64,000 bases of DNA from Pagrus major (Eukaryota; Chordata; Actinopteri; Spariformes; Sparidae), in the NCBI RefSeq assembly GCF_040436345.1, contig NC_133230.1:3307297-3371296 (forward strand), read 5' to 3'. Shown piece after piece: positions 29,831-41,000 of this stretch. The position numbers and the translations under genes were made by a program. Positions within the stretch are counted from its first letter, which is position 1; each line of letters opens with the position of its first letter. The notes beneath the pieces were generated by a model. The model had not been told where the DNA came from, did not search any database, and worked only from the letters and a program-made list of their open reading frames with translations.

Positions 29831-32261
29831 TTCTTCAGACGTCTGTAATTAAAGTTGACAAGAAGCCTAAAATTACACTGTTTGGCCTCTCATAGGTTCA
29901 GGAGACTTGGATTTTATGTTTTTGTTTTGTTTTTACATTTTAAAACAAGACGCCATCTTATGGGTCATGTGGGCGCCACGTTTTGAAAAGGCAGAAAAAG
30001 ATTGCGTGGAATAAAACAAGGTGATATTTCTGGTTCTGCTGCATCGATTTCCATAATTTGTTTCCCCAACAGTGTTACAGGAGCATAAATCCAGACCTGC
30101 AGCCTACATTACCCTCAATGCAACGTGCACGCAGCTTCTTCTAGAGCCACAAAAGGCTTTATACTACCTTTTTCACCTATGCACCTATCCTTTAACAAGA
30201 GCTAATGTTATATTTTTCTTAGTGTGCATGATAAAGGCAACTTTTTATAAAGATTTCACACAGAATTATAACGACACAACATTTTTATACACGTAAAACG
30301 TGTATATAAATGTGAACCATCACTCTTCTGGTCAATATTAACATCTGACATCCATAAATCCTGCTGATAACTTCAACTGCTGAATGATGTCGTATTAAAA
30401 TCAGTTTCTTTTTACCTTCTCTTCTCCACAATGTGCACGAAAAACAGCTACGAAGCATCGAACTCATCGCTCCCGGAGGCTGCAGGACTCATAGGTGTGT
30501 GAAGTTCATCCGTTTTCTGCAGCAGGTTGATGAACCGCCGAGCAGTCGATCACATGCACACTGAACTTTTGATGTCAGGATGTTGGTTAAGTGACGCGAG
30601 TAGAAAGTTTCCTCTGCTTTCCATTTATGTAAATACTGCATCTATACGCATTTCCTCTGAGAACCCACTCTGAAGGTGTGAGAAACAGTTCAAAAACAGT
30701 ATGAAACTTGTCTCACACTGAGGGAAAGATGTTACTTTAGAGGCAAAATCCTAAAACGGAGGAATGAAATCAACGTCAGCTTTCTGTCAGGGTTTAATTT
30801 CAAACCAGATTAATCAAAAGCTTTTACATTTTAAAAGCTCTTACGAAGGTGCAAACCTCTTAAAACTACAAATAAATCTGGGGAAACAGTTTCACTTCTC
30901 TAGAAAACAGAGAAGAGAGTTCAGGTTTAAATTTGTTTTTGCGCTGTTGTGGCCGATACTTTTATTTTTAATATGTTAAAGCCACGCAACAGCGTCGCAC
31001 TTCACCTTTATAATAAGCAGCGTTGTTTCCAGCACTTGACTTACAGCAGAAGTTTAATGTTATCCTTTAATGTCATTGCTCCCTAAAAGAGAGAGTTAAA
31101 GTCTGATCTGATAGATGTGACCCAACCTGTACCACTTTTATATCAGTGTGTGTGTCATGATGTGGTTAGCGTCACTTAGCTTAGCATGAAGAGTGAGGTG
31201 AATGTTTAATTATGTTTGTTTAATGCATCCAAGCTGTGTGCCGGTACAAAACCCGAACTGAGGGTCCGCTCTTGCAAGCAAACTAGCTTTTTCTGAGATG
31301 TCAGTGGTTGTAAAATGAGGCCCAACGTCTCAACTTTCATGCTTAAGACACACTTTTGGTTTTTAGGTGGATTTGCAGACCAGAACTGCTCATCCATCCA
31401 CCGAAAAGGCCCTCTGAGGAGTGTCTCCAGCTGTGTCACAACAAGAGTTTGAGGGTTTTTACATGTTTATCACAGATTCTCTCGAGGTCTCGTCGGTTCA
31501 CACGAGAGGCAGTTTGCATTTGAAAGCGTTTCTTGCGGTTCGTTTCACTTCCAAAATGTCACAAGCAGCGTCTTGGCCACTCTGAAATCTCCACCACTGT
31601 GAAGCCAAATGAAAAGTGAAAGTGTCTCGACCGTTTGCCGCTTAAAAATTTGCATCAGCACCAAATGATAAACGACAGCAGACGTCCACGTGAAAACCGC
31701 CACAACGACCGCAGGTAGAAACGGTGGAAACGTTTTATAACCAAGGAAGCGTTTACAGGAAATGAGGCGTTCATCGTCTGCTCCCGCCAGCTCCAGATGT
31801 TTTCTGTCTTAACAAAGGCCGGGGCAGCTCAGTTTATCCCCCATTTAAGGCTCTCTGAACCAGAAGTGAGCACTGAAGAAGCTGCAAGACTACTTCTGCA
31901 AGAATCATGTTTAATTCTCGATTTTGAGAAGTACAGGCGTTGTGTCATAATGGACCGGCAGAGTGATATACAGTAAATACACAATGACCGTGTGTGTGTG
32001 TGTTCGCTCATTGGACGATTTCCTGTTTGGCACAATGAAGGGAAGAGAGTACTCGATGAATAATGTTCTCCATATCCGCCTCGAAAAGTCTCATGGACAA
32101 GTCATGCTCAAGGATTTTATCTGAAAAGTCTGAATCAGTTTATTTTGTAAAAATGGGAAAACCTTAAAAAATGTACAGTGTGTGTCACACAATCATTGTT
32201 CATGCTTTGTAGCCACGGATGACACAAATATTTCTTGCATTGGGAAATTTTTTTGGCTGCA

Positions 32262-33214
32262 GGAGGAGTGTCTCTGATCCACAGGAGGTCACCAGGACCA
32301 GAAGAGCTCGTCTCCAGACATGAGACCCCGAGAAACATCCAGAACAAACCAAGACTTTACTTTCAGGGATCATTTCTTTAGTTGCTGACTTGAGGAATGT
32401 GTTTCTACAGAGTTTGGTCTCGCTGCCCACGATGAAGAGTTCAGATGTTTCCTTCAGAGCAGGAAACTGGTGGGAAGACGTTGTTTCTTCTCCACTGTTG
32501 AAGATTGTTCAGAGTTTCTGGATGAAGCTCTGATGGAGGAAACATGATCTGAGTGGAGCTTTTTATACTGTTTAATATAAAACTTTATATTTAAATTTTT
32601 AGCTGCTGCAGAAATGTTGAACTTGTCAGGTTTTTGCTCACAAAAAGAGCTAATTCAACCTGAGCAGAGGTCTGATCAGACACAGTCGTTACAAACACCT
32701 GTGCAGGACCTGTAAAGACCCGCCCACACAGGTGTTTTCACTCAGTGTTGTCTGATCAGACCTCCTCTCAGGACGTCTCCTCCTTTCTTCTGCTGGTTCA
32801 GTTGCAGGATTTTAGAGACAGAGGTTAACTTCAACACAAACAGACGTCTGTTCCTGTTGTAATATGTGTTAAAAGACTTTAGAGATTAGTTTTTTCTTCT
32901 TTAAACAAGATCAGCAGTCCACTCAGATCATGTTTCCTCCATCAGAGCTTCATCCAGAAACTCTGAACAATCTTCAACAGTGGAGAAGAAACAAAGTCTT
33001 CCCACCAGTTTCCTGCTCTGAAGGAAACATCTGAACTCTTCATCGTGGGCAGCGAGACCAAACTCTGTAGAAACACATTCCTCAAGTCAGCAACTAAAGA
33101 AATGATCCCTGAAAGTAAAGTCTTGGTTTGTTCTGGATGTTTCTCAGGGTCTCATGTCTGGAGACGAGCTCTTCTGGTCCTGGTGACCTCCTGGGAATCA
33201 GAGACACTCCTCCT
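32262..33214. mobile_element. Fold-back (palindromic) element, copy 1
   Basis: Two arms of about 297 bp (32262-32557 and 32918-33214) are near-perfect reverse complements flanking a 360-bp centre. The arms start AGGAGGAGTGTCTCTGATCC and end GATCTGAGTGGA. The centre itself contains smaller inverted pairs (GAGGTCTGATCAGAC / GTCTGATCAGACCTC and AACACCTGTG / CACAGGTGTT). The whole could fold into a hairpin of nearly 1 kb. It lies 3' of the exoc3l4-like gene. No transposase was seen, and the open frame in the arms (MGSETKLCRNTFLK...) is shared only because the arms are repeats. Confidence 0.8.
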
Positions 33215-33341
33215 AGACACTCCGCCGTCCTTTTGTCATGAAGGTTCAAGATCAATATAAGTTTGATGTTTGTAGATTTGGAAATTAAGCTGCAATTTTG
33301 TGCCGAAACAGGATTCAGAGTTTCTGTTTGGTGTCTGAACT

Positions 33342-33917
33342 TCAGGTGAACAACTTCAGTCGGTGCAAGAAGATTAATTTAAAGAAACTGGACCTGTGAG
33401 GTGAAAATAACAACAAGTTTGTTTCCATCCATCTGCAGAAGTCGTGTGTGTGTCTGAGGTGGAAAAGTTGAAGATACAATAAAAACAAAATGTGATGGAG
33501 ATGTTTTCCACCGTGTGACTGGAGCCCATTAATCACATCACCTCGTTGTGTCTTCTTCTTCTGATGTGATCTATAAGCACCTGACTGGAGGATTACTAAC
33601 ACTGACTGTGTTGATGGAGGAGGAGGAGTGTCTCTGATCCACAGGAGGTCACCAGGACCAGAAGAGCTCATCTCCAGACATGAGACCCTGAGAAACACCC
33701 GGAACAAACCAAGACTTTACTTTCAGGGATCATTTCTTTAGTTGCTGACTTGAGGAATGTGTTTCTACAGAGTTTGGTCTCGCTGCCCACGATGAAGAGC
33801 TCAGATGTTTCCTTCAGAGCAGGAAACTGGTGGGAAGACTTTGTTTCTTCTCCACTGTTGAAGATTGTTCAGAGTTTCTGGATGAAGCTCTGATGGAGGA
33901 AACATGATCTGAGTGGA
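33342..33917. mobile_element. Single arm of the fold-back element with its outer extension
   Basis: 33621-33917 matches the left arm of the fold-back elements. 33355-33620 is the reverse complement of the extra flank at 36381-36617 next to copy 2. It therefore represents one arm plus the outer extension without centre or second arm, and is truncated at GAGTGGA (33917). It lies about 130 bases from copy 1. Confidence 0.75.
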
Positions 33918-35099
33918 CTGTTCAATGTCTCGTTAAAAAGAAAAGGAGCTGAATCTGTTCTTCATTAGAGTTTTGAAATGCTTCTTGCTCAACAGTGTTT
34001 TGTAACATGCAGATGAGTGTGTGGGAGACTCAGGAGAATAATTTGTTTCACATGTTTTATTAAAAAAAGATTAAATAGGTTTGAATTTTCTACATTTTTC
34101 TGAATCACCCATTTCCACAGTTCAGAATTTAACATGCAAACATTTAATATTTAAATTCGTTTAACTTTGGTTCCTAAAACAGACGTCAACGCTCCCAAAT
34201 AGAGATGAAACCCCGATAAACCATCCTGAGATATTAAACACAAACTCTACTCTAAACTCCTCCCAGCTGACAACAAACAAACAAATAAACTATTTACAAA
34301 AACAGGACAATTCAGTGATTAAATGGATGCATGACATGATGTACGTTTCGTGCGTCTGTGATCGAAGAAGGTCGTCTGAAATCAAAAGTTCAACAGAAAG
34401 GACAGTAGAAACACATATTTCACACAAAAACAGTCACTTTTCTTTCGCTCTGGGGTTAATTCCTCATTCAGTGCTTATCAGTTCCTCCGTCGATGGCACA
34501 TGACGCACTCCTGGCACGCAAAGAGTTTCAGTTACAGTTTTATTAACCGATCCGACCGTTTGAACTCAAACTGAGGTCCAACATAAATATCACAAAATCC
34601 ACTTGCTGAGAAATCCTCCTCGCAGCAAACACATTGGCACCGACACCGGCTTTTTATTTATCACATCTGCTGAGAGCTTCACACTCATCCTCACAGAAGG
34701 TTTCTCACAGAGGGTTTCTCAATCTTTTTATCCCCTGCGAACTTTGAGTTTGTTACGTTTTCTTTCCCAGAAATGCCGTGAATGCTCTAACGTGTAACAC
34801 ACAACATGTGCACGTTTAATTAAAGTCGTCTAAGTGATTACAGATGTTGTCAGATGAGATATTAACCAACATGCTGCACAAATATTTGCTTTTAGAGGAA
34901 AGAAACTTAAAGAATAATGCGATTTTACATGTTTTTTGTCCTTCGTTTTAATTCATAAATAATATCCTGAAGGCAAAATGACAAGTCGACTTGATTCTGT
35001 ACAAAAAGGTGCAGTTGGTTTGAGATTAGGTGGCTGTGTTTGAGAGCGAGGACCTCAGAAAAGCTGTAACTGTTAAACCCCACGTCCGCCCACGTCGCT
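33918..35099 (-). other. 3' flank of the exoc3l4-like gene
   Basis: No exon was seen beyond the TAG at 35102-35100. Candidate poly(A) signals on the minus strand are ATTAAA at 34952-34947 and AATAAA at 34544-34539. The 3' UTR therefore probably ends between about 34500 and 34930. Confidence 0.5.
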
Positions 35100-38000
35100 C
35101 TAGCTGTCGGGCAGCAGGCAGCTGAGGCAGGAGAACGGCAGGTTGGACAGGCAGTCCGTGTTGACGGTGACCTGCATGTCGCCGAATAAAACTCGGCTCC
35201 TGTCGCCGCCGCCGTCGCCCAGCTTTTTCTTCAGCTCCGAGAGTCTCTGGAGGATCAGCTGGTGCTCTCGGCCTCTCAGCAGACCTCGGAAATACAGGAC
35301 GGCAACCAGGTGTTTCTTGCTGCAGGTGGAGAAGAAGGAAAAGGAAACATATTGAGTCACTACGACGTCCGATCTGCAAGAACAAGTACCGACAAAAGCA
35401 GGTTACTGATTGGAGGAGGAGCGTCTCTGAGCCACAGGAGGTCACCAGGACCAGAAGAGCTCGTCTCCAGACATGAGACCCTGAGAAACATCCAGAACAA
35501 ACCAAGACTATACTTTCAGGGATCATTTCTTTAGTTGCTGACTTGAGGAATGTGTTTCTACAGAGTTTGGTCTCGCTGCCCACGATGAAGAGTTCAGATG
35601 TTTCCTTCAGAGCAGGAAACTGGTGGGAAGACTTTGTTTCTTCTCCACTGTTGAAGATTGTTCAGAGTTTCTGGATGAAGCTCTGATGGAGGAAACATGA
35701 TCTGAGTGGACTGCTGATCTTGTTTAAAGAAGAAAAAACTCATCTCTAAAGTCTTTTAACACATATTACAACAGGAACAGATGTCTGATTGTGTTGAAGT
35801 TAACCTCCGTCTCTAAAATCCTGCAACTGAACCAGCAGAAGAAAGGAGGAGACGTCCTGAGAGGAGGTCTGATCAGACAACACTGAGTGAAAACACCTGT
35901 GTGGGCGGGTCTTTACAGGTCCTGCACACCTGCACAGGTGTTTGTAACGACTGTGTCTGATCAGACCTCTGCTCAGGTTGAATTAGCTCTTTGTGAGCAA
36001 AAACCTGACAAGTTCAACATTTCTGCAGCAGCTGAAACTTTAAATATAATGTTTTATATTAAACAGTATAAAAAGCTCCACTCAGATCATGTTTCCTCCA
36101 TCAGAGCTTCATCCAGAAACTCTGAACAATCTTCAACAGTGGAGAAGAAACAAAGTCTTCCCACCAGTTTCCTGCACTGAAGGAAACATCTGAGCTCTTC
36201 ATCGTGGGCAGCGAGACCAAACTCTGTAGAAACACATTCCTCAAGTCAGCAACTAAAGAAATGATCCCTGAAAGTAAAGTCTTGGTTTGTTCTGGATGTT
36301 TCTCAGGGTCTCATGTCTGGAGACGAGCTCTTCTGGTCCTGGTGACCTCCTGTGGATCAGAGACGCTCCTCCTCCTCCTGCATCAGCACAGTCAGTGTTA
36401 GTAATCCTCCAGTCAGGTGCTTATAGATCACATCAGAAGAAGAAGACACAACGAGGTGATGTGATTAATGGGCTCCAGTCACACGGTGGAAAACATCTCC
36501 ATCACATTTTGTTTTTATTGTATCTTCAACTTTTCCACCTCAGACACACACATGACTTCTGCAGATGGATGGAAACAAACTTGTTGTTATTTTCACCTCA
36601 CAGATCCAGTTTCTTTTGACACTTTTCAGGAGTTTTGTGGCTTTACTGAATACACGACAGTGCCAACACAGACGCTCACTTCTCTGTTTTGGGGTCAATC
36701 TCTGACTGAAACGTGTTTTGTTTGCCGTTGTTTCATCATCACTTCCTCTTTGTTCAGATGAGGTCCAGAAGTGTGATTTTTAATCCAAAATTGGGGATTT
36801 CTGCACATCTTTAGTCTGCTGATGTGCCTCTCCTCCATCCCCGTCTAAACATTTAACACTTCCACAATTACAAAAGGGAAACTTTGACACTTTCTAAGCA
36901 TTTTAAAAAATTATCAAAATCAGGATGTTGGTTAAATGTCTTCACTCTGGGCTCTTCGTGGTCGACTTCGACTGGTTTTGTCATCACAGCTAACCTCCGC
37001 GTTTGTTTCACTTTAACAAAGCGGCCTGATTTACGAGAAACTGAACTGAACTGGAGGAAAATATTCCCCCTCATCATCGCCCGTAACCTTTCCTGGCTCC
37101 GAGCGGCACCGCTGGATCAAAACAACCTCGGCTCATTACAGAGCTCCATTCAAGCATTTTCCACTTTCAACCACTTTCCACTTTCAACTCCCACTGTAGG
37201 GAAGACTGGAGCCGTCACAATCACAACGATCCATCGCTCGTTTGACAGCAGGATTGCACAAAAATGACTCAATTTCCACCGAAATTGCCTGGAATATAAT
37301 TGGATTAACGCCAAACATTGTTAGAAAGATTCTTGTGAAACCATTTCAAGATAAAAAAAACCACATCAGTAAGATACGATCAACCCACAAACACAACAAA
37401 CCAGCCTGCAAACAAGCGTCTACGAAGTTTTGCCATCGATGAAGTGTCTGCGCTGCAGTAAAAAGTAAAATATTGAGTCCATAAAACATCATACCATGCA
37501 TAGATGCAGAGGAAAAGCTTTTATCTGTCCCGAAACTCTAATACTTTGAAGTAAAACGCTGTTAAACTGCAACAAGCTACTTAAGATGGCTGCCAAACTA
37601 CTACTTCTTTCACCTGAAGTCTGGGTAATGCTCCACGATCGGCTGCAGGTGCTCCTTTATCGTCGTCTTGTTTGTCTGCGTGATGATGTCGCTCAGGTCG
37701 TCTCCGACAGGGTGGAGCCACTCGTTGGTCGACCTCTGCGTCAGAAAAACACCCAGAAACATAACGAAGTGAACGTGTTGAGATCTTCACCAGACACAAA
37801 ACAAACCCTTACATTTATTTTCAGGCCATTTATATATTTTAATCGACGACATGAAGCCTTTTTTCGACGTCATTCTCTGACTCGAAGGTGTGTGTGTAAT
37901 ATTTATACTTTCTTTCATGATAATAAGATAAAACGTACCAACACTCCCACTTAAAAGGAAACTCCACCAAATGTACTCCTACATTTCAGTTAATGAGTCA

Positions 38001-41000
38001 CAATCTTCTTGGGTTGCATCATCAGAAAAGTAAGATGCAGCGTTTTTCGAGCTCGATCCAGCTGACTGCTTTTTCTTTTCCTCTGTCTGTTGTAACCTCC
38101 CTCAAACTTCTCCCGAGAAAGAGCAAAGCTAAATATTCGAAGTATCCCTTTAAACAGTGGTGGAAGAAGAAACTCGGATCCTCAGATGCTCCATAGAAGT
38201 TCATTAATGTGCTTTTATTCAACATTTTCAGCTTTATTTGCTAAATTCAACCTGTTAGATTGAGTTTTTTCCCTGTTTTAGATCCATTAGATTGTAAATA
38301 CTGATGCATCAATATGAGCTGCTCACGGTGGAGCTGCTTTGTGTACAGCTGCATCATTTTTACATGAATATTAGCGTATATGTGCAGGTTATATAGGTTG
38401 TTTCTGGTGTGTAACGTCTCAAACTGAATGCCGACTTAACTTGGAGGGAAGGAAAACCTCAACTTTAACATGCGTCACAGTGATTTTCTAGAAAAGGGGT
38501 GGAAATTAGTGTGTCACTACCCATGACCACTGCAGAGTCATGTGGACGTTCGTCACGTTGGCGTCCAGCGTGAGAGGGTTTTACCTCCACACTCCATTTA
38601 TATTTGTGGTAATTTTTCTAGACTTTCTAATCTTTCTAAATATTTACGTCTTTAAATTAAACAATGAGAGAAGTTTAGAAGCCAAAAAGATTTATAACGT
38701 TTATTTTTTTCCGCAGTTCTGTAACTATTTCTGTCAAATTAATGTAGTGAGAAGAGTTTTATCTGCAAAAAAATGATAAAAGCATCTTAAAATGAAAAAT
38801 CGAGACCTTTTTCATTCATTTCATAAATATACTTGGTTTCTTTCCGCTGCTTCCATTTTCTGCATCAACACTCGTGCTCACATATTGTGAAATATTATGA
38901 AATTATTGCTTCTTTCCGATATTTCACCACGAGCCAAACAAAAGCTTTTGTTTTTTTTCCTCGTTGTCGGGGGAAGTTAAACAGTTTTTTTTTTTACCAT
39001 CTCCACAAACAGATCCCTCAGTTCGCCCCACTGCTCGCGGATCTTTCCCGCCGCCTTCTCGTGTTTCCGGTTCTTGCACGAGTAGTTGCTCTTCATCAGC
39101 TGGCCGACGTACTCCTTCGCCACGTGGTGGTGCAGCCGGCTCGCAAACTCCTGTTGCCGGGAAACACACACACACAAACACACACAGAGGGAGTGATGTC
39201 GCACGATAACAGGATGGCCAGAAAAAATAGGGGGAAACGTAAGCATGTGCTTTTCTTCATTTGGCCAGATCATCTGAGCTAACACCTCCGACTTCCACCT
39301 ATTCATGTCTGGCTGCTACCAGGGTTCATCACTCTCGCTTAAACTTTTCCTGCAGTGGCAGGAAAACGAAAACAATGGTGCCCCTCATTGATTCACTGGA
39401 ACTTCCAAGAGGATTGATGGCAAAGTCAAGAAGGATTTCCTCTCCTGACTTTCAAAACCTTAAAATAAAAGTAATTCATAGCTGATTATCTTCATGTTTA
39501 GTCCCAGTACATCAACTCTAACCCTGAAAATACAAAAATAAATCCAGTTTAAGCACTTTGTTGAAGGTCTTAGTGACATGTTTGCGGGTTTTTTCTAATC
39601 AGGGTCAGATAAATGCCAGTAAATCCTTCGCTCTGACAAACTGGCATGTCACCAATCATCATAACGAGGCGGGTGTTTCCAGAAAGTGAAATTTGGCTGG
39701 TAAGTTCAACAAAGCGGCTGGAATGCCCCAACCAGCCCTTCTCCTCCTCCTCCTCCTCCTCCTCCTCCTCCTCCTCCTCCTCCTCCTCCTCCTCCTCCTC
39801 CTCCTCCACCTCCTCCTCCTCCTCACCTGGACTTGTGGAGGCCTCATGCGCGAGCAGTGCTGAGAGAGCAGGTCCGTCCGAAGAAGAAGCTGCTTAAAGT
39901 CGTCGTCGCTGGTGAGCCACTTCCTCGTCATCATCCTCCTCAGGAACGGCTGGAAGACAGCACGGAAAAACACATTTTAAAACACTTGATACACGAGGCT
40001 CGGTTTGAGGGGCGTCAGTGTTCTGCTGGGAAGCTTTGGGTCCACTTGGCACCCGTCCAAACACCGCTGCAGACTAAGTCCACCCCCTCATCATAACCCC
40101 AACAGGACATGAAGCCGCAAAAAACTGTTCAGGACGGCCCGAGAACGCGACGAAGAGCTTGACTCGGCCTCCAAGTTCCCCAAATCCCAGTCCGGTCAAG
40201 CGTTTGTGGGGAGGTGCTGCAACAACCCCGATCCACGGGTCAGACTTGACCTTTGACCTTTGCTACAAAATGTAAAATGAAGCTACTGGTGGGTTGAAGG
40301 TAATGGCAGAAAAAGATGAACAAAATATTACAATTATTTTGCCCCAAGTGCCCCAAATTGACACATTTCAGCTTCTTAATTGTACAAATTTTCTGTAAAT
40401 TCGACGATCTTATAATCGTCATATTCATTAATAATGAGCAGAAGAGTTAGTTGCGGCCGTATAGTAAATTATTGCTTTATTACCGTTTGTCAAACCGGTG
40501 ACGCTGATTGTTATTTAAGGCCGGCGGAGCTACTTGAGTTTGTTTTCGTGTCTGTTTCTTCAAACACTTGAAAATGACCTTCAGTGTGTTTATATTTTCT
40601 TTCAAAAAAATTAATGCCGGCTGTTGTTTGCTCAGGATTGCAAGGTGGAAGTGGAGCGTTGCTGAAGATAAAAGCACTCAGAAAACCTCTCGAGGACGAG
40701 GTCGGAGCCCGTCGTGTCCTGTTTCCTGCAAACTGTCAGCGTTGGTTTTCATGTCACTGCGGCCACAGTTTCTCCGTAACCGACTAGTTTTTGTGCTTTA
40801 ACGTAACCAAACATTAACCGTGGTGGTGGCAGATCAGGAAACAGTCCCATCAATCGTTTTTATGGTCATGTGTGATTGTGTTTTTGTCGGTTAGATGAGA
40901 CATCATGTGAGGTTATCAGTCCGGCTGTCTCACATCCATCTCTAGCTCCTTACTTGAAAGCATCTCTGTATTGTTCCTCAACAGTTTCAGGAAAGGGAGC

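Follow-up and report, generated by a model that had tools for sequence, protein, structure and literature searches.

A cluster of five genes for U3 small nucleolar RNA (snoRNA), arranged as two convergent pairs (w1-w2 and w4-w5) and a single gene (w3), lies in the 64,000-nucleotide stretch of Pagrus major DNA analysed here (NCBI RefSeq assembly GCF_040436345.1, contig NC_133230.1, positions 3,307,297 to 3,371,296 of the forward strand; hereafter the window, whose own numbering is used throughout). From the sequence, we consider it very probable (about 0.83) that these are independently transcribed U3 genes that have stayed alike through conversion after inverted duplication. The inverted repeats that they form had been ascribed in the original prediction to a fold-back element of an unrecognised family. 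That assignment falls because each arm is a U3 snoRNA gene together with its promoter (Rfam RF00012): the supposed elements look like U3 genes facing each other, and not like mobile DNA.

We found that each of the five arms consists of a promoter of about 90 bp and a full-length, 207-nt U3 snoRNA gene. The five matches to RF00012 score 128-134 bits (cut-off 34) and cover the model from 1 to 219 of 219. A scan of the entire window with Rfam gave five matches above cut-off, all of them U3 snoRNA and all filling the arms (four lower-scoring overlapping matches of the same clan were left out). Box A (GGGATCATTTCT), the C' box (CGAUGAAGAG) and box D (CUGA) are present in 5/5 genes. Box D reads CUGA in the window type versus CAGA in the full copies of two further U3 loci, on the sequences labelled C1 and C10.

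The repeat architecture described in the original prediction was recovered throughout. In unit 1 the inverted arms occupy 32261-32557 and 32918-33214 (297 nt), and in unit 2 they occupy 35412-35710 and 36077-36375 (299 nt); at 99% identity, arms of these lengths are far beyond chance. The centres of the two units do have opposite orientations (7 mismatches and 10 gap columns in 358 aligned columns), and over its entire length unit 1 is 97% identical to inverted unit 2 across 962 aligned columns. The third arm, 33621-33917, was likewise confirmed, together with the outer flank that it shares in inverted form with unit 2. Because the units are distinguished by substitutions, an 8-nt insertion or deletion and their flanks, they do not represent a single sequence used twice in the assembly; judged without reads, an assembly duplicate is thus not favoured.

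Nested inverted pairs were also present as predicted: each centre holds a 24-nt pair enclosing an 11-nt pair, within about 115 bp, and the inverted pair surrounds TCTGATCAGA. One half of this stretch matches 15 places on 11 other chromosomes (81-88% identity over about 46-66 bp). By these matches, a dispersed short repeat is present in the centre as an inverted pair. Since the palindrome occurs in both centres, it was probably present before the unit was duplicated. We rejected the idea that the same palindrome plan recurs elsewhere: one of the dispersed places (L047) has a 49-nt inverted pair of 80% identity whose arms face the opposite way from those in the centre, and an inverted pair is absent from another (L048).

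When we searched the 786-Mb genome with the arm, at least five places matched at 98% identity or more, every one of them in this cluster. The remaining 21 out of 26 matches were partial and 82-91% identical, with 18 on C1 and 3 on C10 (all of these counts are lower bounds). Similarly, a genome-wide search for U3 returned at least 28 matches at three places, 20 on C1, three on C10 and the five window genes, a lower bound because scoring covered 59 of the 7728 first-look candidates. The C1 array (C1:24404696-24426988) packs its 20 matches into about 22 kb, 14 on the plus and 6 on the minus strand; 18/20 are strong (147-169 bits), and the other two are weak and broken (98.9 and 51.4 bits). The three C10 genes (C10:7862558-7865691) lie in one orientation, score 155.7-156.7 bits and represent a third sequence type. 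For boxes and promoters we examined 19 of the 20 C1 copies, one being cut by the edge of its stretch; 17 of the 20 entered the comparison of sequence types, from which the two broken ones were omitted.

In an alignment of the window type with 17 C1 and 3 C10 copies, 40/217 columns have no letter in common between it and the others. Only 4 of these 40 fall within nucleotides 1-70 of the RNA, and 36 lie beyond; some are gaps that reflect a shorter hairpin in the window type. To compare pairing we used one copy per type in the Rfam alignments, whose fitting to the model biases the counts towards pairing. Between w2 and a C1 copy, 13 of the 63 model pairs were changed on both sides and paired in both, 3 were changed on one side yet paired in both, 2 were changed on both sides and not paired in both, 33 were the same and 5 were gapped. 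Against a C10 copy, w2 again had 13 pairs changed on both sides and paired in both, with 4 changed on both sides and not paired. The stem that adjoins the B/C motif is kept, and one of its pairs has gone from G-C to A-U in the window type, changed on both sides. As judged from these alignments, the window type is a distinct U3, in which the 5' part that pairs with ribosomal RNA (rRNA) is little changed and divergence of the 3' part has been accompanied by compensating changes. Folded alone, w3 reaches -72.3 kcal/mol (z -2.84), and 2/200 shuffles fold as well. A search with an 18S rRNA probe gave two matches, C8:31815415 and C18:3781603, both to the 5' end of 18S ribosomal DNA (rDNA) and with 118 bp in common. 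No full rDNA unit was found with this probe, Rfam reported no rRNA in the two stretches, and their complementarity to U3 was limited to 10-nt matches without meaning.

In the promoters, the sequence CACCANGAC occurs at -61 in 5/5 window genes and 3/3 C10 genes, and the -61 motif, which we take to be the proximal sequence element (PSE) of small nuclear RNA (snRNA)-type promoters, is identical across the window five. The w4 and C10 promoters agree at only 29-33/90 sites overall, but at 8/9 within this motif, and in three comparisons 14, 19 and 23 of 2000 shuffled pairs matched as well. The C1 array has another promoter motif, AACCCTGAG, at -60 in 17/17 full copies examined; of the broken copies (n=2), one has it at -65 and the other lacks it. 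For w4 and a C1 copy, 1545/2000 shuffled pairs reached the best matching stretch. Downstream, a 3'-box-like sequence begins at +12 to +15 past w2, w3, w4 and 3/3 C10 genes; the pattern was written after inspecting the sequences and follows what we presume to be the 3'-box consensus.

The near-identity of the arms, which the original prediction attributed to recent activity or gene conversion, is real; its origin in conversion is suggested and not proved. Within the pairs, 4/297 sites differ between the arms of w1 and w2 and 4/297 between those of w4 and w5, while counterparts across units are separated by 5 differences in each case (w1-w5 and w2-w4). Because both units hold both genes, the split within each pair should predate the duplication of the unit. 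In their 3' flanks w1 and w2 are unrelated, similarity ending within about 20 nt of the 3' end of the RNA, and this, combined with the equal divergence, suggests that conversion between copies keeps the arms alike, albeit on small numbers. Variable sites in the cluster are fewer in the RNA (4/207) than in the promoter (10/92; p 0.0016), also without the two arm-edge sites (4/207 versus 8/90; p 0.009).

We propose that each gene would be read separately from an snRNA-type (PSE) RNA polymerase II promoter to yield a 207-nt U3 RNA. By homology, this RNA would enter a box C/D-type small nucleolar ribonucleoprotein, and its 5' domain would pair with pre-rRNA and help in 18S rRNA processing. The convergent pairs may have arisen by inverted duplication, with one pair duplicating the other in inverted form, and conversion between copies would maintain the likeness of promoter and RNA while the 3' flanks differ.

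Several observations pull in the other direction, and a number of them would suit a dead or dying side-cluster, in which former U3 genes, now pseudogenes, are alike through recent duplication or conversion and U3 is supplied by C1 and C10. Model scores of the window genes (128-134 bits) lie below those of C10 and of 18/20 C1 copies. Box B is off consensus (GAGCAGGAAA instead of GAGCGUGAAG), as is box C (UUGAAGAU instead of the model's UUGAUGAU). Folded alone, w3 stands out less from its shuffles than does a C1 copy (z -4.40, 0/200 shuffles as good), and a 3'-box-like match is absent past w1 and w5, as it is from the 17 full C1 copies. Moreover, 7 of the 63 pairs compared between w2 and the C1 copy were changed on one side and unpaired in at least one of the two, no match to an octamer or SPH-like consensus occurs within 600 bp upstream of the window genes, and the unit-to-unit comparison alone (RNA 4/414, rest 13/538; p 0.14) is not significant. 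A cluster in decay is nevertheless improbable. All five genes are full length with very few variable sites in the RNA, box D is CUGA, and 5/5 share one -61 motif. Standard pairs in w2 (16/21 in the 5' part and 37/42 in the 3' part, with 4 of the 42 gapped) are comparable to those in the C1 and C10 copies (each 14/21 and 38/42). The window genes are most likely working U3 genes. The C'/D and B/C motifs of U3 are described as kink-turns bound by Snu13 (PMC8162545); in the window B/C motif, both kink-turn G-A pairs could still form, with an altered flipped-out base.

The two other rivals fare worse. One holds that the intronic pair persists because it yields a long double-stranded RNA acting on its host gene. 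A 299-nt inverted pair of 99% identity that is probably intronic would suit such a role, but 3/5 genes are located past the presumed last exon, the arms are accounted for by their U3 identity and inverted duplication can yield a convergent layout; we regard this as very unlikely. We reject a fold-back (inverted-repeat) transposable element of unknown family as a still fainter prospect: although inverted arms flank a centre, part of which resembles a dispersed repeat, the arms are U3 genes, the five or more copies of at least 98% identity are all local, the outer flank (33215-33710), matched beyond the cluster by only 41 nt on C5, is no dispersed repeat, and the three units tested showed no target-site duplications of 4-6 nt directly at their edges.

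The host gene belongs to the Sec6 family and is presumably the one that the original prediction named exoc3l4. Two of the eight open stretches tested match Pfam Sec6, both on the minus strand: 46789-46127 (E 3.6e-19), whose product has TNFAIP2 as its closest solved relative, and 39315-38980 (E 3.6e-5), which is below cut-off. The presumed last exon, at about 35103-35330, gave no match. The predicted location of copy 2 in an intron is therefore likely: w4 and w5 probably lie in the last intron of this gene, and w1-w3 beyond its end. A long hairpin RNA from copy 2 would be possible only if the host transcript crosses it. Within the stretch of the Sec6-family gene, window positions 39640-39890 hold a long simple repeat that yields poly-E and poly-S reading frames.

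Features of the U3 cluster, in window coordinates. Offsets are relative to the RNA start (-) or past the gene (+).
Feature	Position	Strand	Evidence
U3 snoRNA gene w1, 207 nt	32351..32557	+	RF00012, 132.2 bits, model 1-219
U3 snoRNA gene w2, convergent with w1	32918..33124	-	RF00012, 133.9 bits
U3 snoRNA gene w3, single ("third arm")	33711..33917	+	RF00012, 133.3 bits
U3 snoRNA gene w4	35504..35710	+	RF00012, 133.0 bits
U3 snoRNA gene w5, convergent with w4	36077..36283	-	RF00012, 128.2 bits
PSE-like motif of w1, CACCAGGAC at -61	32290..32298	+	CACCATGAC at same offset in 3/3 C10 genes
PSE-like motif of w2, -61	33177..33185	-	motif comparison
PSE-like motif of w3, -61	33650..33658	+	motif comparison
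PSE-like motif of w4, -61	35443..35451	+	motif comparison
PSE-like motif of w5, -61	36336..36344	-	motif comparison
3'-box-like sequence past w2, from +12	32891..32906	-	pattern match
3'-box-like sequence past w3, from +15	33932..33947	+	pattern match
3'-box-like sequence past w4, from +12	35722..35737	+	pattern match
Centre of unit 1 (3' flanks of w1 and w2)	32558..32917		repeat search, unit alignment
Centre of unit 2 (inverted copy of centre 1)	35711..36076		repeat search, unit alignment
Palindromic stretch in centre 1, related to dispersed short repeat	32659..32772		inverted-pair and genome search
Palindromic stretch in centre 2, same as in centre 1	35856..35977		inverted-pair and genome search, unit alignment
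Outer flank of w3, common to w5 inverted	33381..33628		98% over 248 nt with 36369-36616
Outer flank of w5, common to w3 inverted	36369..36616		repeat search

The U3 gene family is already known; the features local to this case are the layout and the third U3 type. Their recognition removes a supposed unknown repeat and maps five likely genes for an essential RNA. It also offers a clean natural case, with three diverged U3 types in one genome, compensating stem changes, two promoter motifs and inverted U3 pairs kept alike by apparent gene conversion. Among the matches listed in a literature search, which left most subscription journals uncovered, no fish cluster of this kind appeared in titles or abstract openings. 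In humans, SNORD3 genes form clusters that include inverted copies. Like vertebrate U3 genes (SNORD3; RF00012), the window genes match the full model, have box A and the C' and D boxes, carry a PSE-like motif near -60 and occur in several copies; unlike them, they are 207 nt long, have changed boxes B and C and show the 40/217 type-specific columns.

Two more distant systems share parts of this arrangement. In Euglena (PMC2784804), U3 genes are likewise multi-copy, vary mainly in the 3' stem-loop domain and have a convergent small-RNA gene downstream; the partner there is U5, whereas in the window U3 faces U3, so that an inverted repeat results. In Drosophila, a U3 paralogue with a sequence of its own, snoRNA:U3:9B, similarly lies beside two other U3 genes, and a chromatin and antiviral role is reported for it (PMC12309367), whereas the role of the window genes follows from homology alone. 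Because a separate role is reported for this one Drosophila paralogue, we keep open the rather doubtful idea that, of the three U3 types under two promoter motifs, the window type with its re-made B/C motif may be a specialised U3, serving a given stage or a job separate from that of the bulk U3, much as zebrafish has maternal and somatic rRNA types (PMC6468398).

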